30,277 nucleotides of DNA. Source: Candidatus Latescibacterota bacterium (GTDB taxonomy: Bacteria; JAAXHH01; JABIQT01). Shown piece by piece: positions 7,244 through 15,998 of the stretch (within the stretch, counting starts at the first letter, position 1; each line of letters opens with the position of its first letter). The translations under genes were made by a program, and so were the position numbers. Under the pieces are notes generated by a model that was not told the origin of the DNA, made no database searches, and was given only the letters and a program-made list of their open reading frames with translations. The stretch is taken from contig JABIQT010001039.1 in assembly GCA_018667995.1 (NCBI GenBank), positions 1 to 30,277 of the forward strand, read 5' to 3'.

Positions 7244-8041
7244 ATGTCCATCAGTCAAACCCAAGCAATCGTATTGAACCGCTATGTCATGGGCGATTCA
7301 AGTCTGCTGGTTACCGTATACACGAGAGAATTTGGCAAAATTAAGCTTGTGGCTCGGGGCGCCAGGAAGTCCAAGAATCAGCGCGCCTCTGCTCTGGAGC
7401 CTTTTACCCACATTTCGATTACGTTTCGACACAAAGAGCAAAGGGATCTTCAGACTTTAAATCAGGTTGAGGTAGTTCAATCTTACCGATATCTCGGTGA
7501 AGACCTGACTCGTATGTCCTATGCCGGTGCGGTCTCGGAACTTGTCAATCGTCTCGTAATCGGCGAAGAGCCAAGCGTTGAACTGTTTGATCTGATATTG
7601 CAGGTGCTAGATGCGCTGAATCGCGAGCAACCAGTGGTAGCAGAATTACTGTTCTGGGGTTTTCAATTGAGGTTCGCTATGAGCTTCGGCTATGCCCCAC
7701 AGTTTGAGCAATGCGTAGCCTGTGGGGAGGGTCTTCAGGAAGAATCCCTTAGGTTTAGCGCACCGCTTGGTGGCATGCTTTGCAGAGGTTGCCGATCGCA
7801 AGATACGGACGCTATTCAAGTCTCGTTGGGAACGGTCCGAATGCTGGCACGCTTACAGGCGCACCCATTAGATCGACTCAGCATCATCCGCCCGTCCCGA
7901 CAGTCACGTCATGAGACAAACCGCGTGATACGGTCATTCTTCGCATATCACATGGACGACACGAGAGAGTTGAAATCGCTCAGGTTCCTGGACTCGATCG
8001 ATCCTGGTACCGATATAGCATCTAAAACGCTGGCACCATAA
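7244..8041 (+). CDS. recO: DNA repair protein RecO
   Basis: RecO, with RecF and RecR, loads RecA onto SSB-coated single-stranded DNA in recombinational repair. The 265-residue protein begins with the OB-fold (QTQAIVLNRYVMGDSSLLVTVYT, residues about 5-80), followed by a helical domain with a four-Cys zinc-binding site, CVACGEG...CRGC. The start ATG at 7244 follows closely on the ftsB-like stop. An ATG at 7240 is in another frame and is not used. recR, its functional partner, is also in this window at 19774. Confidence 0.93.
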   Translation: MSISQTQAIVLNRYVMGDSSLLVTVYTREFGKIKLVARGARKSKNQRASALEPFTHISITFRHKEQRDLQTLNQVEVVQSYRYLGEDLTRMSYAGAVSELVNRLVIGEEPSVELFDLILQVLDALNREQPVVAELLFWGFQLRFAMSFGYAPQFEQCVACGEGLQEESLRFSAPLGGMLCRGCRSQDTDAIQVSLGTVRMLARLQAHPLDRLSIIRPSRQSRHETNRVIRSFFAYHMDDTRELKSLRFLDSIDPGTDIASKTLAP

Positions 8042-8080
8042 GCTTGTATCCCGGAATCAATGTTTCAGTTGGAGTTGCTC

Positions 8081-8875
8081 ATGGATGGAAAAGCTCGAGG
8101 TTTTCTGGTCCTTTTTGTCTTCTTCATGGCTATTGCAGTTGGAACAGTCGTCGTTGGCTTCGTGGACCTGGGCAGCTCGTTCGATGCCGCACGTCTTCTG
8201 GCAAGTGAGGTTTTTCCCATGGGGGACGATGAGCAGACGCCAACATCCGTTGCTTCAGAAAGCAGCCTTGGTGGCGCGGAGTTCCTTACGGCGGCTGCAA
8301 TGCAGGCCCTGAAAGATGGAAAAGCAAAGCCCGGTGATATCCTGGAACTAGGGCAACTGTACGTGAAGGCCCAGAGTGATGGCCATGTGGACGAAGAAGA
8401 GACCAATGCAATATTCAGAGTCGCTGATCGAGCTGGCATCGTAGACGCCGTTATCGACAAGGCTCTGGAACCGGACAGTCCCCCCAAAGAATCCTCATCA
8501 GGTCAAGTTTCGGATGCACAAAGCACCAGACAGAGTGGTTCCGGCGTAGGACAGGAGCTCCGATCTCTCATATCAGATGTCGAGGCCGCTCGGAGTGATG
8601 GTAGTCTCAATCCTGGTGAACTTGTGAATCTCCTGGAGAAGGCAAAAAAGGCTCGACTGCAGGAACGAATACAAGCCATGATACCGCCCGGATACGACGA
8701 TTCCCGAGCACGCACCATAGCCAGGAATTTGGCAAAAGCGATGATTACGGGGCGTGCCTCGATTCAGGACGCGAGGACCATTGCAGACCTCTTCATCCAG
8801 GCTCAAGCCGATGGCCGTATCGACCACGCGGAAATCGACCGTATTGCTACTACCGCAGAACGACTAGCCCTGTAA
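8081..8875 (+). CDS. Unrecognised membrane-anchored protein with duplicated EF-hand-like/TerB-like helical repeat
   Basis: I do not recognise this gene. It has an N-terminal membrane helix (about residues 8-30), a polar linker, then a helical region with two copies of a roughly 44-residue unit: residues 77-120 and 221-264. Both units contain the same core, L-Y/F-x-x-A-Q-x-D-G-x-V/I-D-x-x-E, around Asp100-Gly101 and Asp244-Gly245. A weaker related DGSLNPGE segment lies between them. The pattern resembles EF-hand-like or TerB-like helical modules, so metal binding is possible but unproven. The start at 8081 is favoured by GGAG at 8071-8074; an in-frame ATG at 8060 would add seven residues. It lies between recO and the PfkB-like gene and is probably co-transcribed with them. 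Most of the protein should be outside the cytoplasm if the N-terminus is inside. Confidence 0.7.
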   Translation: MDGKARGFLVLFVFFMAIAVGTVVVGFVDLGSSFDAARLLASEVFPMGDDEQTPTSVASESSLGGAEFLTAAAMQALKDGKAKPGDILELGQLYVKAQSDGHVDEEETNAIFRVADRAGIVDAVIDKALEPDSPPKESSSGQVSDAQSTRQSGSGVGQELRSLISDVEAARSDGSLNPGELVNLLEKAKKARLQERIQAMIPPGYDDSRARTIARNLAKAMITGRASIQDARTIADLFIQAQADGRIDHAEIDRIATTAERLAL

Positions 8876-8896: not shown

Positions 8897-9901
8897 ATGA
8901 CCGAATCACAATCCCGATATGACCTTGTCACGTTCGGGGACGGATTTTTGCGCCTGGTGGCGCCGGGTTTTGGTAGAATTGAACAGGTTAATTCTGTCCA
9001 GGTCCATGTGGCCGGACAGTCCCTCGAGACGGCTGTGGCGGCCAGCAGGATGGGACTCTCCACAGCCTGGGTGTCTATCGTTGCAGACAATCCCCTCGGC
9101 CAAAAAATCATCAACAAGGCTCGAGAGCACAATGTGGATACCAGCTCGTCGCGACGGTCTGAGCAAGGTCGCGTTGGACTCGTTTACACCGAAAAGGGAA
9201 GCGCACCCAGAACAACGGTAGATATAGAGGATATGGCTGGCGCGACGTTTGGCAATGGATCTGAGTTTGAACTCGATTGGTCCATTTTGGACGAATCTCG
9301 CCTGTTGTACCTGGACCTCGATGCGGCTATCAGATATGCCGGCTCGCTCTCCCTGTTTCGGGCTGCAAGCGATAGAGCTCAAGCTTCGGACTGCGCGATC
9401 TGTGTGTCTTTAGGCGACTATTTCGCAGACGGCTCAGAAGAGTATGTCCAGGACATCCAGGAATTCTGTCAGCACGCTGAAATCATATTAACCACGAAGC
9501 GGGCGGCAATGCGGATGTGTCCTGACGAAATGGATTTGGAAACGCTTGCGGAGCGATTGAAGAGTGACCATGGAACTCCGATAGTCTCAGTTACCGACCA
9601 CAGGTTCGACACACCGAGAATCTGCAGCTGGAAAGCATCCGTTGTGATAGGAACCGGCACGAAAAACCGGCCGCTCGCAGACCAGGAATACAAGGTAGAC
9701 GTGGTTGACGCGGCCGGTGCCAACGGCGCATTTGCTGGTGGATTTCTGTATGGTTATCTCACGCACAATGCCCGCACCGGTCTGCAGTTCGGAAATGCCA
9801 CGGCGGCATTAGCACACTCGGTGCCTGGTAATATCTCCTGGGCCACTGCGGATGATATCGCATCTCAATTGACCGGATCAGGCACGAAACTACAGCGATA
9901 G
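8897..9901 (+). CDS. PfkB/ribokinase-family protein related to 2-keto-3-deoxygluconate kinase, active site degenerate
   Basis: Overall length (334 residues) and sequence follow PfkB sugar kinases of the KDG-kinase branch: an N-terminal LVTFGDGFLRLVAP strand, ADNPLGQKI, and VVDAAGANGAFAGGFLYGYL near the C-terminus. Two signatures are broken. The first signature (normally GG-A-x-x-N) reads AGQSLET at residues 39-45. The second (normally D-x-x-GAGD-x-F) reads DAAGANGAF at 271-279, so Gly277 replaces the catalytic Asp. Family knowledge says that Asp is the base that activates the acceptor hydroxyl, so kinase activity is doubtful. The frame is intact with good codon structure, so it is not a simple pseudogene; a regulatory or binding role is possible. 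GGAG at 8889-8892 supports the start. KDPG aldolase follows after 19 bases, the usual partner of a real KDG kinase. Confidence 0.8.
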   Translation: MTESQSRYDLVTFGDGFLRLVAPGFGRIEQVNSVQVHVAGQSLETAVAASRMGLSTAWVSIVADNPLGQKIINKAREHNVDTSSSRRSEQGRVGLVYTEKGSAPRTTVDIEDMAGATFGNGSEFELDWSILDESRLLYLDLDAAIRYAGSLSLFRAASDRAQASDCAICVSLGDYFADGSEEYVQDIQEFCQHAEIILTTKRAAMRMCPDEMDLETLAERLKSDHGTPIVSVTDHRFDTPRICSWKASVVIGTGTKNRPLADQEYKVDVVDAAGANGAFAGGFLYGYLTHNARTGLQFGNATAALAHSVPGNISWATADDIASQLTGSGTKLQR

Positions 9902-9920
9902 TGTGGACATGGAGCGTGTA

Positions 9921-10577
9921 ATGTCAGCAAACCAGGACAATATGGACCACATTCTCGACAGTGGTATCGTAGCAATTATCCGTGCAGATCGTTCCGATGT
10001 ATTGATCGATACGGTACACGCCATTCATGAGGGCGGAATAAGTGCGATTGAAATCACGCTGACCACGCCTGGGGCGTTGGATGCCATCACAACATGCAGC
10101 CGAGAAATGGCTGGCAAGATTCTTATTGGCGCAGGGACGGTACTAGACCCAGAGACGGCCCGGGCTTCAATCCTTGCGGGCGCGGAGTTCATTGTAGCCC
10201 CGGCCCTGAATCCCAAAGTGATTGAGGTATGCAGGCGGTATAGCACAATTGCCATACCTGGCGCCCTCACTCCTACAGAAATTCTCACAGCATGGGAATG
10301 TGGTGCCGATTTCGTAAAGGTGTTCCCGGCGACCACATTCGGCCCCGGGTATTTCCGCGATATAAAGGCTCCTCTACCCCAGGTCAACCTCATTCCAACA
10401 GGCGGCGTGTCCCTCGAGAATGCCGGGAAATTCATGGCGGAAGGTGCTAGCGCGGTTGCCGTTGGAAGCTGTCTGGTCGACAAGACCTGCATAGCGAACA
10501 AAGATTGGACTACAGTAACGAATCGAGCCAGAGATCTTGTGGAAACCGTACGCAAAGCCAGGCAGGAAATGACATGA
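9921..10577 (+). CDS. eda: 2-dehydro-3-deoxy-phosphogluconate (KDPG/KHG) aldolase
   Basis: KDPG aldolase splits 2-keto-3-deoxy-6-phosphogluconate into pyruvate and glyceraldehyde-3-phosphate, in Entner-Doudoroff or uronate degradation. The TIM-barrel pattern is clear: IVAIIRA, IEITLTTPGA with Glu44, GAGTVLDPE, the Schiff-base Lys in DFVKVFPA (Lys133), and IPTGGV followed by AVAVGSCLV, the phosphate-binding loop. With the ATG at 9921 the Lys falls at position 133, the same number as in E. coli Eda. GGAG at 9911-9914 supports that start over GTG 9903 or ATG 9909. The enzyme looks intact, in contrast to the degenerate kinase upstream. Its stop overlaps the next gene's ATG by four bases (ATGA), a sign of translational coupling. 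Confidence 0.92.
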   Translation: MSANQDNMDHILDSGIVAIIRADRSDVLIDTVHAIHEGGISAIEITLTTPGALDAITTCSREMAGKILIGAGTVLDPETARASILAGAEFIVAPALNPKVIEVCRRYSTIAIPGALTPTEILTAWECGADFVKVFPATTFGPGYFRDIKAPLPQVNLIPTGGVSLENAGKFMAEGASAVAVGSCLVDKTCIANKDWTTVTNRARDLVETVRKARQEMT

Positions 10578-11443
10578 TTCGAAAAGCGATTGTTCCCGTC
10601 GCCGGCCTCGGCACCCGCCTCCTCCCATTAACCAAGTCTCTGCCCAAAGAAATGCTGCCGGTGGGTCGCCTGCCTACCATTCATCATGTAATTGATGAAC
10701 TTACGGAAGCTGGGATCGACGAGATATTCCTCGTCACGGCTCGGCATAAACGCGCCATTGAGGACTATTTTGATCCGGATCCGGAACTCGACCGGAAATT
10801 AAGGGACACGAACCGAGCTGAGCTGGCGGATACACTCCAGTTCCCGGGAATCTCGTTTACCATGGCCCGGCAAAGCACGCCTGCAGGAAACGGGGATGCG
10901 GTTCGTCTCGCCCGTTCTTTTATGGGCACCGATAGCGCCCTCATGGCATGGGGTGACGCCATTATCAGCTCACCAACAGGTGAGAGTGTCGTTAGTCGCA
11001 TGATTGATGTACATGAGCGCACTGGCGCTGCATGTACCATTGCAGTCGAAGAAGTACCTCTGGAGAAAGTATCTCGATATGGGATCGTCCACCCCGTCAG
11101 CGGTCCGAGCGAAGAGTTTGCCATTGACGATATCGTGGAAAAGCCTGACTTGAAGGCAGCACCGAGCCGATTCGCCGTATCAGCTCGTTATATCTGTGCC
11201 CCCGAGATCATGAACGCCCTCGATCGCACCGTGCCGGGACACGGGGGAGAGATCTGGCTCGTGGACGCAATCAAAACCATGCTGCAGGACGGTTTGCCGG
11301 TTTGGTGTGTCAATCTGGGTCCGGAAAGCAAGCGTTACGATATCGGTAGTCCTATGTCCTATTGGGAAGCATGTGTAGATTTCGCGCTGGCCGACGTTGA
11401 AGACGGCGCGCTTTTTCGGACTTATTTGAAGAGCCGTGTATGA
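10574..11443 (+). CDS. galU: UTP--glucose-1-phosphate uridylyltransferase
   Basis: GalU forms UDP-glucose from UTP and glucose-1-phosphate for glycans, exopolysaccharide and uronates. The 289-residue protein opens with VPVAGLGTRLLPLTKSLPKE, the nucleotide-binding loop with Arg15 and Lys21, and contains the family stretches VEKPD and GGEIWLVDAI. The ATG at 10574 is chosen because it overlaps the upstream stop as ATGA, has AGGA at 10564-10567, and starts directly at the conserved strand; an upstream TTG at 10505 would add an unrelated extension. A GHMP kinase lies further down the operon, so this enzyme could act on another sugar-1-phosphate. GalU is the safest name. Confidence 0.9.
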   Translation: MIRKAIVPVAGLGTRLLPLTKSLPKEMLPVGRLPTIHHVIDELTEAGIDEIFLVTARHKRAIEDYFDPDPELDRKLRDTNRAELADTLQFPGISFTMARQSTPAGNGDAVRLARSFMGTDSALMAWGDAIISSPTGESVVSRMIDVHERTGAACTIAVEEVPLEKVSRYGIVHPVSGPSEEFAIDDIVEKPDLKAAPSRFAVSARYICAPEIMNALDRTVPGHGGEIWLVDAIKTMLQDGLPVWCVNLGPESKRYDIGSPMSYWEACVDFALADVEDGALFRTYLKSRV

Positions 11444-11477
11444 AACGAGAACACGGAATGCGAGCGGAGTTGAAGGC

Positions 11478-13175
11478 ATGACAAGAATTCTGGTGGTAGA
11501 TGATCGCCCTGAGAACATTGAACTACTAGAAGCCATCTTACAGAGCGCAGCCTACGATGTGTCATCCGCAGTTGATGGTGAGCATGGGCTTCAGCGCGCA
11601 GAATCCATTTTGCCCGATCTGATTATCTCAGATATTCTCATGCCCAATGTGGATGGGTTCCAATTCTGCCACATGGTCCGTAAGAATCCGGCATTGACCG
11701 ATGTTCCGTTCATATTTCTTACTGGCGCCTACGTGAGTGCGGATGATGAGAAATTCGCCTTTGAATTAGGTGCAAACCGATTCATTCGGAGACCTTTTCA
11801 GGCCGATGAATTACTGGAAAGCGTCAGGGAAGTATTGGAATCAAACCCCAACACTTCTCTGAAGATGCCCGCTGATCTCGACGAAGATGCGTATGTGAAG
11901 CAACACATGGGGCGACTCACCCAGACCCTTGAGGATAAGGTTGTTGAGTTGGAACAGGTCACTGAGGACAACACGAAGCTACTTCACGACGCACAGAGTC
12001 AGGAAGCGAAACTACAGCAAAGCCTGGACGAGCTTCAGGCTACGCAGGCTTACCTCGTTCAGTCCGAACGACTTTCTGCTGTAGGCCAGTTGGTAGCAGG
12101 TGTGGCCCACGAACTAAACAACCCGTTGGCTATCATCCTCGGATACTCTCAACTGATTCTCCGAATGCCGGAGGCGAGTACCCGAATGACAGAATGTTTG
12201 AAGAAGCTAGAAGATGCAGCGCAGCGATGTCAGAACATAGTGCACCATTTAACAATCTTCGCGCAGAAAAACAAGGTCGAGAAGAAGCCCCTGAACATAA
12301 ATGACGTCGTGCGAAGCGTTGTCGACATACGAAAAGATCAGTTCGATGTGGATGGAATCAGCATCGACATCACCCTCGACCCGCGTCTTCTGGTGGTCTA
12401 TGCCGACTACCAGCAACTACAACAAGTATTCTTGAGCTTAGTGAATAACGCCCAAGAGGCCCTCCTCGGAAAGTCTGAATCCGATCGAGCAATCGAATTG
12501 AAAACCAGATTGGTCGAGCAGAAGGTCTTCATCGACTTTGTCGATAACGGCGTCGGTCTCAAGGAAGAACTGCTTCCGAATCTTTTCGAACCATTCTTCA
12601 CAACAAAAGATTTTGGCCAAGGAATCGGCCTTGGACTTAGCGTCTGCTATGGGATCATAAAGGGTCACGATGGCGATATAACCGCAACCGGCAATCAGTC
12701 TGGCGGAGCCACATTTACTATTGAGCTGCCTCTTCACCGTGTAGGAAAAGAAGAGCCGCCCAAAGCCGACGGACCAAAGGATACCACTGAAATGGAACAG
12801 GTCAATCAGAGGATCCTCGTGATTGACGATGAAGCCGGTATACTAGACATTCTGTCTAGCTCGCTTGAGCAGGCAGGATATTCCGTGGATACGGCAATGA
12901 GAGCAGTTGATGGCCTACTCGCCCTTCAGAACGGAAAATACGACCTGATATTAATGGATATCCGCCTGCCCGATAGCGATGGTGGTACTCTCTTCCACAA
13001 AGTCAAAGCCATGGACCCTGAGGTCGCCGACCGTGTCATATTTATTACCGGTGACACGGTAAGTACGGAGACTCTTGCCTTTATCGAAGAAACCGGAAAT
13101 ATATACATCGCAAAACCATTTGATATCGAGAGTGTCAGACAATTGGTCGCTAGGCGATTGGATTCAGGAGACTGA
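11478..13175 (+). CDS. Soluble hybrid histidine kinase (REC - HisKA - HATPase - REC)
   Basis: The 565-residue protein has four modules and no membrane segment. Residues 1-120 form a receiver domain (ILVVDDRPEN, phospho-acceptor Asp52, LTGAY). A coiled coil (about 140-195) leads to a HisKA domain with the His211 motif VAHELNNPLA. The HATPase domain holds NNAQEAL, DNGVGL and GIGLGLSV. A second receiver at about 445-565 carries Asp494 and an intact KPF. In the first receiver the conserved Lys is Arg105 (RRPF). The start at 11478 follows GGAG at 11466-11469; an earlier in-frame GTG overlaps galU and seems unlikely. No dedicated output gene is adjacent. It sits inside a sugar-metabolism block and may sense a cytoplasmic signal or relay from another kinase; its target is unknown. 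Confidence 0.88.
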   Translation: MTRILVVDDRPENIELLEAILQSAAYDVSSAVDGEHGLQRAESILPDLIISDILMPNVDGFQFCHMVRKNPALTDVPFIFLTGAYVSADDEKFAFELGANRFIRRPFQADELLESVREVLESNPNTSLKMPADLDEDAYVKQHMGRLTQTLEDKVVELEQVTEDNTKLLHDAQSQEAKLQQSLDELQATQAYLVQSERLSAVGQLVAGVAHELNNPLAIILGYSQLILRMPEASTRMTECLKKLEDAAQRCQNIVHHLTIFAQKNKVEKKPLNINDVVRSVVDIRKDQFDVDGISIDITLDPRLLVVYADYQQLQQVFLSLVNNAQEALLGKSESDRAIELKTRLVEQKVFIDFVDNGVGLKEELLPNLFEPFFTTKDFGQGIGLGLSVCYGIIKGHDGDITATGNQSGGATFTIELPLHRVGKEEPPKADGPKDTTEMEQVNQRILVIDDEAGILDILSSSLEQAGYSVDTAMRAVDGLLALQNGKYDLILMDIRLPDSDGGTLFHKVKAMDPEVADRVIFITGDTVSTETLAFIEETGNIYIAKPFDIESVRQLVARRLDSGD

Positions 13176-13178
13176 ATA

Positions 13179-14159
13179 ATGGCAGTAGTCTGCTCAGCGC
13201 CGGGTCGAGCCGGAATCATCGGCAACCCAACGGACATGTATGGTGGCAGCGTAATATCCTGCTCCCTACAGGAGCGCGCCCGTGTTATTATAGAAGATTG
13301 GGACCATCTTGAACTGGAAACGGAAGGCGAGCGGCGACTTCTAAAGACATCTAACGATTTCTCCGTACGCGGCGATCATTTTGACATTGCACGTGCAGTC
13401 CTCACAGGAACCAATTCGCAAGATCTCTCCGTTCGTATCTCTTGGCAAACATCCATACCGTTTCAGGCCGGCCTGTCTGGCTCCACCTCTCTTCTAGTTG
13501 CGACGCTTGCGGCCGTAGAGTACTATCGCGGAATTAGTGACTCACGCTACCACCTGGCGGAACGTGCACGTATGATTGAGTATCAGCACCTAGGCGTCTT
13601 CTGTGGTTATCAAGATGCATATATGTGTACTTTTGGTGGGATGAACTATATGGATTTTCGCGGGAAGGAATTCCATCAGGATTTCGGATCGGATCCACTA
13701 GCCACGGTGGAGCCGCTCTCGGACTACAGTATAGCTCCATCTTTACTACTAGTAAACACGGCTGCACGCAAGGTTTCGGGTAAAGTGCATCGACCCATCC
13801 GTGACAGATGGGTCGATGGCGATAGGGAGGTAGTGGACGCATATCGCAATATCGAGGAAATAGCACGAGCCGGGAAGCGGGCATTGCTGAACGCTGATTG
13901 GGAGTGGCTGGGCACTCTAATGAACGAAAACCACAGTATATCAAGCGATCTGGGTGGCTCAAATCAGGAAGATGACGCCATAATAGAGACTGCACGAAGA
14001 AACGGAGCACTGGGGGCAAAACTCGCAGGAAGTGGTGGAACCGTCATCATCCTTCACCCCGAAGTTGAAGGGCTGAAGAATACTCTCACTGATGCCGGAG
14101 CACGATCTTTCATGAGACCGGCGCCCTGTCCCGGCGTCGTTATTGAGGAACAGAATTAA
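13179..14159 (+). CDS. GHMP-family sugar kinase, possibly glucuronokinase-like
   Basis: All three GHMP motifs are visible: the N-terminal APGRAGIIGNPTDMYGG (substrate region), the ATP loop PFQAGLSGSTSLLVA at about residues 93-107, and the C-terminal GAKLAGSGGTVIIL. The 326-residue length is typical. The GNPTD variant, rather than GEHTD of galactokinase, resembles glucuronokinase and heptose-kinase-like members, so phosphorylation of a sugar or uronic acid at C1 is a reasonable inference, not proof. With galU two genes upstream, a kinase-plus-uridylyltransferase salvage route to a UDP-sugar is possible. AGGAG at 13166-13170 sets the start, 3 bases after the histidine-kinase stop. The next gene begins immediately after its stop codon. 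Confidence 0.8.
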   Translation: MAVVCSAPGRAGIIGNPTDMYGGSVISCSLQERARVIIEDWDHLELETEGERRLLKTSNDFSVRGDHFDIARAVLTGTNSQDLSVRISWQTSIPFQAGLSGSTSLLVATLAAVEYYRGISDSRYHLAERARMIEYQHLGVFCGYQDAYMCTFGGMNYMDFRGKEFHQDFGSDPLATVEPLSDYSIAPSLLLVNTAARKVSGKVHRPIRDRWVDGDREVVDAYRNIEEIARAGKRALLNADWEWLGTLMNENHSISSDLGGSNQEDDAIIETARRNGALGAKLAGSGGTVIILHPEVEGLKNTLTDAGARSFMRPAPCPGVVIEEQN

Positions 14160-15455
14160 ATGGTCGTAAACCTCGCCTACGGCAGAGATGCGTTGCCCGT
14201 TGAGATACCGGACAGCAACCTGGCTGCCGTGCTCAACATGAACCCCGTTCCGCACCTGGCCGATCCTGCGATGACGACGCGGGAAGCCTTGTTATGTCCG
14301 ATCGATAGCCAACCTCTCTCCGAGCTGGCGCGTGTTAGGAAAGATGCATGTGTCGTGGTGTCCGACATAACGAGACCAGTCCCGCATGATGTGATCTTGC
14401 CGCCAATTCTTCAGACGCTCGAACTAAACGGTATTACCGCCGAGGACATCACGCTATTAGTAGCCACCGGCTTGCATGAGCCGATGGGAGAAGCCCAACT
14501 GCGGGAAACACTCACAGACCCCATTGTTGATCGCTATAACGTGGTAAACCATGTAGCACGGAATCCCGATGAACAGATGTACCTCGGGGATACGCCAGCC
14601 GGAATTCCGGCATATGTGGATCGTAGATACGTGCATTCAGATCTAAAAATCCTGACTGGACTCATAGAATCACATTTCATGGCAGGATACTCCGGCGGTC
14701 GAAAACTTGTAGCCCCAGGTCTGGTGGGAACCAAGACAATAGAATTGCTGCACGGCCCTACCGTGCTTGAAGATCCACGAGCTGCCAACGGAGTTCTCGA
14801 AGGCAATCCGCTTCATGAAGCATCTCTATCCATTGCCCGGATGGCGGGGGCAGACTTCATCGTGAATGTAGCTATGGATGAGGAGCGGCGTGTCACGGGA
14901 GTGTTTGCCGGCGAACTCGAGGCTGCCCATCTAGCGGGCGTGGCCGCTGTGGAGCAGATGGTTCAGGTATTCCTGGAAGAACCAGTAGACATCGTGATCA
15001 CCTCATCGGCGGGCTATCCATTGGACACCACCTTCTATCAAGCTGTAAAGGGAATGGTAGGAGTCCTGGACATTCTCAAGCAGGATGGCACGATAATCAT
15101 CGCGGCAAGCTGCATGGATGGCATAGGAAGCAAAGAGTTCGAAGAGCTCTTGAGGAATACATCCGATCTTGGTGCCTTCATACATGGCATTCAACAGCCC
15201 GGAGTTTTTACGATTGATCAGTGGGAGGTTGAGGAACTGATAAAAGCACTTCGCAAGGCCCATGTACTTCTCTACACCGATGGGTTGAGCCCTGACGACA
15301 TCCGTTCATGTCTTGTGGAGCCTGCCACATCCGTTGAATCAGGCATTTCGGCGGCCCTCACCCGGCATGGTGAAGACGCAAGAATTGCCGTGGTCCCAAA
15401 GGGGCCATATGTGATGCCCCGGTTGGCACAGAGAATCCATTCTGCGGCGGAGTGA
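14160..15455 (+). CDS. LarA-family nickel-dependent racemase/epimerase (DUF2088)
   Basis: LarA enzymes racemise lactate or related 2-hydroxy acids using a nickel-pincer (NPN) cofactor. This 431-residue protein keeps the hallmark positions: SDITRP at 68-73, His106 in ATGLHEP, and His172 with Lys182 in SHFMAGYSGGRK. His198 follows Lys182 by 16 residues, the same spacing as cofactor-tethering Lys184 and Ni-ligand His200 of Lactobacillus plantarum LarA. The active site thus looks complete. The substrate need not be lactate; family members act on various hydroxy acids, and the neighbouring sugar-acid genes hint at a sugar acid. The cofactor genes larB, larC and larE are not in the window. The start abuts the upstream stop; GAGGA at 14146-14150 lies inside the upstream gene. 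Confidence 0.88.
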   Translation: MVVNLAYGRDALPVEIPDSNLAAVLNMNPVPHLADPAMTTREALLCPIDSQPLSELARVRKDACVVVSDITRPVPHDVILPPILQTLELNGITAEDITLLVATGLHEPMGEAQLRETLTDPIVDRYNVVNHVARNPDEQMYLGDTPAGIPAYVDRRYVHSDLKILTGLIESHFMAGYSGGRKLVAPGLVGTKTIELLHGPTVLEDPRAANGVLEGNPLHEASLSIARMAGADFIVNVAMDEERRVTGVFAGELEAAHLAGVAAVEQMVQVFLEEPVDIVITSSAGYPLDTTFYQAVKGMVGVLDILKQDGTIIIAASCMDGIGSKEFEELLRNTSDLGAFIHGIQQPGVFTIDQWEVEELIKALRKAHVLLYTDGLSPDDIRSCLVEPATSVESGISAALTRHGEDARIAVVPKGPYVMPRLAQRIHSAAE

Positions 15456-15458
15456 CAT

Positions 15459-15998
15459 ATGGCAAACGGATACCTCGATATCCCACCGACAATTGATCCA
15501 ACAGCGTTTGTGGCCGACAGCGCTGATATCATTGGCGCCGTTACGATATCCAAGGATGCCAGTATCTGGTATCAGGTCGTACTACGGGCCGACGACGAAC
15601 CCATCACCATCGGTACCGGGAGCAACATACAGGACGGTACCATCGTCCATATCGACATTGGCTGCCCCACAGTCATCGGCGATCATGTCACGATTGGACA
15701 CCGGGCCATCGTCCATGGCGCGATAATCGCTGACGAAGCGCTGATATCCATGGGTGCCATCGTGCTAAGCGGAGCACGAATTGGCAAGAATGCCATTGTC
15801 GGCGCGGGGGCTCTCGTGACGGAACGGATGGAGGTGCCTGCAAACTCGCTTGTACTCGGTGTTCCAGGCCGAATCGTCAAAGAGGTGTCGCAAGAACAGA
15901 AAGATCGTATTCGGCAGACGACTGACGGATACGTGAAAAGAGGGCGTCTGTACCGAGCGAGAGCCCTGGCTAAAGACAGTAAAATAGCCCCTGAATAG
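15459..15998 (+). CDS. Gamma-class carbonic anhydrase-like hexapeptide-repeat protein
   Basis: The 179-residue protein is a left-handed beta-helix made of hexapeptide repeats with a C-terminal helix. Three zinc-ligand His residues appear at 64 (TIVHIDI), 81 (TIGHRA) and 86 (IVHG), in the spacing of the YrdA/CaiE/Cam-like short gamma-carbonic anhydrases, and Arg43-Asp45 and Gln58-Asp59 are at the usual positions. It may hydrate CO2 or act as a CoA-dependent hydrolase or transferase accessory; many members have no shown activity. GGAG at 15449-15452 sets the start, 3 bases after the LarA-like stop, so the two are probably co-translated. It appears to be the last gene of the 8.9-16.0 kb block. 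Confidence 0.88.
   Translation: MANGYLDIPPTIDPTAFVADSADIIGAVTISKDASIWYQVVLRADDEPITIGTGSNIQDGTIVHIDIGCPTVIGDHVTIGHRAIVHGAIIADEALISMGAIVLSGARIGKNAIVGAGALVTERMEVPANSLVLGVPGRIVKEVSQEQKDRIRQTTDGYVKRGRLYRARALAKDSKIAPE

Follow-up and report, generated by a model that had tools for sequence, protein, structure and literature searches.

A KDG kinase descendant without the catalytic aspartate is conserved in sampled genomes of Candidatus Latescibacterota

Introduction

What does a sugar kinase gene encode when the residue held to be its catalytic base is gone, and why is such a gene retained? In human ketohexokinase, the GAGD motif supplies the anion hole that receives the gamma-phosphate, and its Asp has been proposed as the base (PMC2651755). 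In the window, which is the whole stretch of 30,277 nucleotides that was analysed, a PfkB-family gene with a replacement of this Asp is directly followed by eda, the gene for a KDPG/KHG aldolase. A first-pass annotation of the locus had described GANG for GAGD with Gly277, an altered first signature AGQSLET and a full-length frame, and all three are read in the ORF as described. The product was suggested to be a pseudokinase or a sugar-acid sensor, or to have acquired a different chemistry, and, in case of inactivity, the aldolase was expected to need another source of KDPG. The features of the gene itself are as follows.

8897..9901, plus strand: predicted PfkB-fold pseudokinase, derived from KDG kinases, 334 aa (Pfam PfkB, AlphaFold, VIA-align, 16/16 orthologues without the catalytic Asp)
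9026..9028, plus strand: codon of E44, at the site of the former Asn of the PfkB GGxxxN motif; Glu in 16/16 orthologues
9407..9430, plus strand: residues 171-178, remnant of the sugar-acid motif DxNxRxxLW; Asp171, Asn174 and Arg176 lost, D174 invariant in the clade
9716..9727, plus strand: GANG instead of GAGD (GGT GCC AAC GGC); Gly277 for the catalytic Asp, Asn276 for the anion-hole Gly

Fold and Loss of the Active Site

The ORF starts with ATG and contains no internal stop codon. The Pfam PfkB profile (PF00294) matches residues 25-313 with an E-value of 2e-22 and 80.4 bits (cut-off 25.8), and the NCBIfam equivalog for KDG kinases, NF041332, is not reached, with 135.4 bits against a cut-off of 440; an intact paralogue from the phylum, described below, also stays below it with 275.5 bits. 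An AlphaFold2 model calculated from the alignment of the 16 orthologues (A1) has a pLDDT of 85 and a pTM of 0.90. Its best match among solved structures is the TM0067 KDG kinase (PDB 2afb), with a VIA-align Z of 40.8 over 317 residues at 23% identity, and Foldseek gave TM-scores of 0.86-0.88. According to the model, the PfkB kinase fold is kept.

For the comparison of the active site, 27 kinases were used, comprising 13 intact paralogues of the same phylum and 14 kinases of other lineages, and active-site positions were assigned by sequence alignment, not from superposed coordinates. The C-terminal motif of the window's protein is D271-A-A-G274-A-N-G277-A-F, while G-x-G-D is present in 27/27 of the kinases; the first signature is A39-G-Q-S-L-E44-T, for which the kinase form is (G/A)G-x-x-x-N, with the Asn in 26/27. 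DxNxRxxLW, SGIT, the Arg of YDR and the ATP-side TxxD are likewise absent, so that the extent of motif loss read from the sequence is larger than had been noted before. The absence is shared by the whole clade: at the position of the catalytic Asp, Gly is found in 11 and Ser in five of the 16 orthologues and Asp in none, the motif variants being GANG, GALG and GTLS. Residues invariant or nearly invariant in the 27 kinases and lost in the clade are Asn44, Gly141-Ile142-Thr143, Asp171, Asn174, Arg176, Asp203, Arg272, Gly276, Asp277 and Asp312, and also Trp87 and Arg113 with one exception each; the orthologue of G001 has both W87 and R113, though not the Asp. The ATP loop has kept its conserved Thr (T233) in 2/16 pseudokinases, one of which is the window's own. 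In the 14 outgroup kinases, 41 columns are invariant; of these, the pseudokinases keep 16 and lose 21, and in the intact paralogues, which served as a control for evolutionary distance, 39 are kept and one is lost.

The loss of the general base alone does not prove that kinase activity is zero. Judged from its sequence, however, the protein belongs to PfkB by fold and descent and not to the PfkB kinases, being devoid of the general-base Asp of GxGD. It can be called a pseudokinase, a conserved and selected kinase homologue without essential catalytic residues. The pseudokinase reading of the first-pass annotation is thus borne out by an Asp absent from 16/16 orthologues, by the loss of many other residues invariant in kinases and by the constraint on the gene described below.

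For the Sulfolobus solfataricus enzyme, the residues recognising KDG were identified as Gly34, Tyr90, Tyr106, Arg108, Arg166, Asp258 and Asp294 (PMC5334617). By sequence alignment, the Gly is kept in the clade, the equivalent of Arg108 is present in 1/16, and those of Arg166, Asp258 and Asp294 in 0/16; the equivalent of Tyr106 is retained in 14/16, though not in the window's protein. New residues were fixed across the clade: E44 and D174, both Asn in kinases, are invariant (16/16), and R87 and T142 are fixed in 15/16, the exception at T142 being Asp142 of the window's protein. Further residues fixed in the clade at former kinase positions are G16, K70, K74, E77, A103 and F118. Since the two Arg recognising the sugar acid have been lost, together with the GAGD Asp and a further Asp used for KDG recognition, and two invariant acidic residues have been gained in the pocket, KDG is an unlikely ligand. 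The old site therefore lends no support to the earlier proposal of a sugar-acid sensor, and sensing of KDG through it appears unlikely.

Conservation across the Phylum and Origin

Besides the genome of the window (G000), 58 further genomes were searched for orthologues; by their titles, most of the genomes are metagenome assemblies. Syntenic orthologues with 35-41% identity to the window's protein were identified in 15/15 other genomes of the same order, and a search across Candidatus Latescibacterota covered the same 16 genomes, all of them positive. The matching contigs are labelled mostly as Candidatus Latescibacterota and in some cases as Gemmatimonadetes or Zixiibacteriota. A scan of the genome contigs with the single window protein revealed no relative, and a scan with the alignment revealed 11 loci. 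In the 16 genomes, the gene order eno-divIC-recO-(TerB-like)-pseudokinase is conserved. The neighbours in the window are the following.

7244..8041, plus strand: recO, upstream syntenic neighbour in 16/16 genomes
8060..8875, plus strand: protein with a membrane anchor and stretches weakly similar to TerB/DUF533; its gene separates recO from the pseudokinase gene
9903..10577, plus strand: eda, KDPG/KHG aldolase, apparently intact (TIGR01182, 198.6 bits against a cut-off of 156; Pfam 1.5e-45)
10574..11443, plus strand: GalU-like UTP--glucose-1-phosphate uridylyltransferase (TIGR01099, 9.8e-71, below its cut-off)

The adjacency of eda reported before is correct, with its product above the TIGR01182 cut-off; eda may start with GTG at 9903 or with the in-frame ATG at 9909. 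The TerB/DUF533-like gene is present between recO and the pseudokinase gene in the deep lineages G000, G001, G011 and G013 and absent in genus g3. Downstream, eda-galU follows in G000, G011 and G013, and in G001 eda is followed up to the contig end. In genus g3, eda is located away from the locus, the pseudokinase gene still being found beside recO, which implies that linkage with eda is not needed; the adjacency of eda and galU was kept at the other site in the two g3 genomes examined (L109 and L110). In the window, galU is followed by a receiver-histidine kinase-receiver hybrid regulator (11436-13175), found in the same place in G011 and, as a shorter ORF, in G013. Next, at 13179-15998, are genes for a GHMP-type kinase, a LarA-like nickel-dependent lactate racemase and a gamma carbonic anhydrase-like protein, all below the NCBIfam cut-offs.

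In the tree, the pseudokinases form one branch with a support of 100/100. The copy of the window has the longest branch (1.09), so its function could differ from that of the rest of the clade. Close homologues with a restored GAGD, which had been named as the observation that would overturn the pseudokinase reading, were not found at this locus within the phylum, and those with the Asp are more distant. An Asp-less relative was likewise not found outside the phylum, GxGD being present in every hit read among the stronger hits in sampled genomes of other phyla. The nearest homologues outside the phylum often adjoin eda, and outgroup kinases with a kdgK-eda adjacency were identified in G223, G385, G116, G295, G158, G296, G055 and G200. 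Since the nearest active relatives mostly lie beside eda, the ancestral state was most simply a kinase-aldolase pair, of which the kinase would have lost its activity near the base of the phylum. Fusions of a KHG/KDPG aldolase with a sugar kinase form the named family NF041633, which shows that a physical link between the two enzymes is possible.

Selection on the Gene

Values of dN/dS were obtained by Nei-Gojobori counts from 45 pairs of ten g3 genomes. The median is 0.34 for the pseudokinase and 0.28 for the intact paralogue, compared to 0.11 for recO and 0.14 for eno, so that the constraint on the pseudokinase is weaker than that on the latter two. By region, dN/dS amounts to 0.16 for residues 1-107, 0.41 for residues 108-160, 0.60 for residues 161-265 and 0.27 for residues 266-332; the lid region and the C-terminal region are thus constrained and the ATP side is relaxed.

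8897..9217, plus strand: residues 1-107, the N-terminal part with the beta-sheet lid, most constrained (dN/dS 0.157 against 0.60 in residues 161-265)

Among the deep lineages, residues 1-107 are 0.57-0.63 identical, which is the level found in active TM0067-like kinases, whereas residues 108-265 show an identity of 0.28-0.32 compared to 0.41-0.55 in the active enzymes. Dimers of the ribokinase family make contact via the beta-sheet lid (PMC2651755), and the strands of the model would place the lid in the N-terminal part of the window's protein.

Supply of KDPG to the Aldolase

A single eda is present in each of the 16 genomes, G001 containing an additional short partial match. An intact KDG-kinase paralogue with the motifs VDRLGAGDAF and DINYRAKLW was identified in 15/16 genomes, including that of the window (G000:C697, L038), and is cut by the contig end in G011 and G014; it was not found in G009, a genome that is 93% complete. 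It sits on a different KDG-kinase branch of the tree from the pseudokinase. Its neighbours in G000 and G013, named from the sequence and not from profiles, are a folC-like gene and a pair of ATPases resembling those of oligopeptide transporters. In genus g3, the intact KDG kinases (L041-L047, L103-L105) carry a variable, repetitive insertion of low complexity just before the R-x-G-x-F-F-x-E lid strand, which is missing from the copies of G000, G001 and G013.

A classical Edd was considered as the source of KDPG and rejected, with none above the cut-off in the 16 genomes. Among the four IlvD/Edd-type dehydratase classes, the lowest score in the window's genome is that of the YjhG/YagF D-xylonate dehydratase. 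With no Edd above the cut-off and an intact paralogue at hand, the KDPG cleaved by Eda is most likely produced by this paralogue, and the expectation of a separate KDPG source agrees with its presence in 15/16 genomes.

Possible Functions

We consider it probable, though far from certain, that the protein is a descendant of a KDG kinase which was kept as a non-catalytic protein, either regulatory or a scaffold, and which acts by binding. The starting point would have been a TM0067-type KDG kinase beside eda, whose catalytic Asp would have disappeared in the ancestor of the phylum along with most of its motifs for the sugar acid and the nucleotide. The gene would then have been retained for a non-catalytic protein in which phosphoryl transfer is presumably absent. 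Binding may take place via the surface of the conserved lid, which serves as the dimer interface in the ribokinase family, and via the rebuilt pocket with E44 and D174. In this way a partner like Eda or the active KDG kinase may be modulated or scaffolded, or a ligand other than KDG may be sensed; a product of the adjacent recO operon is a further candidate partner. The choice of Eda or KdgK in particular as the partner is the weakest step and is doubtful. A strict Eda subunit is made less likely by the relocation of eda in genus g3, while the single eda per genome is compatible with one. In a narrower form, the protein would pair with the active paralogue via the lid common to both and regulate it as a subunit of the heterodimer. 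The lid-bearing region is conserved as in active kinases, the lid is the dimer contact of the family (PMC2651755), and the two proteins co-occur in 15/16 genomes; however, the genes are unlinked, the paralogue stems from a different KDG-kinase branch and was not detected in G009, which makes this form quite unlikely.

It is also conceivable that the old pocket was remodelled, either as a new active site or to accept another ligand of lower acidity, and that the protein catalyses a non-kinase reaction or senses a neutral or cationic metabolite. E44 and D174 in 16/16 and T142 in 15/16 are maintained in an otherwise relaxed middle region, all three are placed by alignment to KDG kinases in former sugar-site motifs, acidic residues are found instead of Asn, and the carboxylate-binding Arg residues are gone. 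However, the remaining residues 108-265 evolve fast (dN/dS 0.41-0.60), which is not typical for an active site, and we know of no PfkB protein with another chemistry; this explanation is held to be unlikely. The related proposal of a phylum-wide conversion of an aldolase-linked KDG kinase to a non-kinase, whose pocket with the invariant Glu44 and Asp174 would bind or convert a new ligand, is likewise rather doubtful. That the protein is still a kinase, acting on a different substrate or using a base other than the Asp, would agree with the intact fold, and for genus g3 an Asp at 273, two residues past D271 (DxDG), is imaginable as the base. This candidate was rejected for lack of conservation, since Asp 273 is missing in the window's protein and in those of G001, G011 and G013; with the anion-hole Gly (G276), the ATP-side D203 and R272 lost as well and T233 left in only 2/16, remaining kinase activity is very unlikely. 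Finally, it is scarcely credible that the gene is a pseudogene in decay or that the finding stems from an error of sequencing or assembly. The orthologue of G010 (L028, 7105-8043, minus strand) contains an in-frame TAG close to the C-terminus, after PGPLN, which may be an error or a recent nonsense change, and the gene evolves faster than recO. However, full-length open frames are present in 15/16 genomes from three families and five genera, dN/dS is well below 1, the location is conserved and the clade is monophyletic; a frame could not have remained open at 35-41% identity without selection, so that a pseudogene is in practice refuted. A sequencing error was rejected with 15 independent orthologues that also lack the Asp, which answers the call for orthologues with the same kind of substitution.

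Comparison to Known Systems and Conclusions

The closest known system is represented by TM0067 from Thermotoga maritima (2afb) and the kinase part of NF041633, with which the pseudokinase has the fold, the lid region, the C-terminal region and the ancestral adjacency to eda in common. However, the catalytic Asp, the anion-hole Gly, the Asn of GGxxxN, DxNxRxxLW and TxxD are all missing from it. In plants, the PfkB proteins FLN1 and FLN2 have no fructokinase activity and are part of the RNA polymerase complex of plastids (PMC5864856, PMC3409070); they share with the pseudokinase a retained PfkB fold and, presumably, the loss of the ancestral activity and a non-metabolic role. FLN1 retains GSGD and FLN2 (A/Q)SGD, so that the Asp is still present (PMC5864856). 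In contrast, the Latescibacterota clade is bacterial, is derived from KDG kinases and lacks the Asp; the FLN-type signature of GSGD or (A/Q)SGD with a long N-terminal extension is not found in it, its motifs being GANG, GALG or GTLS and the extension being absent. A transfer of the FLN1/FLN2 function was rejected, since these proteins are too distant (about E 1e-5 in a sequence search of solved structures). Yeast Gal3p, a galactokinase-like sensor, is a regulator derived from a kinase and works without catalysis (PMC3409070). It comes from the galactokinase family, which is unrelated, and has retained the binding of ATP and galactose, whereas the pseudokinase has lost residues of the KDG and ATP sites. 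Few bacterial pseudoenzymes that descend from metabolic kinases seem to have been documented, and a literature search with little coverage of subscription journals identified no bacterial PfkB pseudokinase or pseudoenzyme.

For the annotation of these genomes, it would be wrong to assign a sugar kinase or KDG kinase function to the pseudokinase gene, and the KDPG supply should be traced to the other copy. The protein has lost the Asp and 20 further outgroup-invariant residues and yet appears to be under selection in every sampled member of the clade; with the intact paralogue as a built-in control, its function would be accessible to testing.
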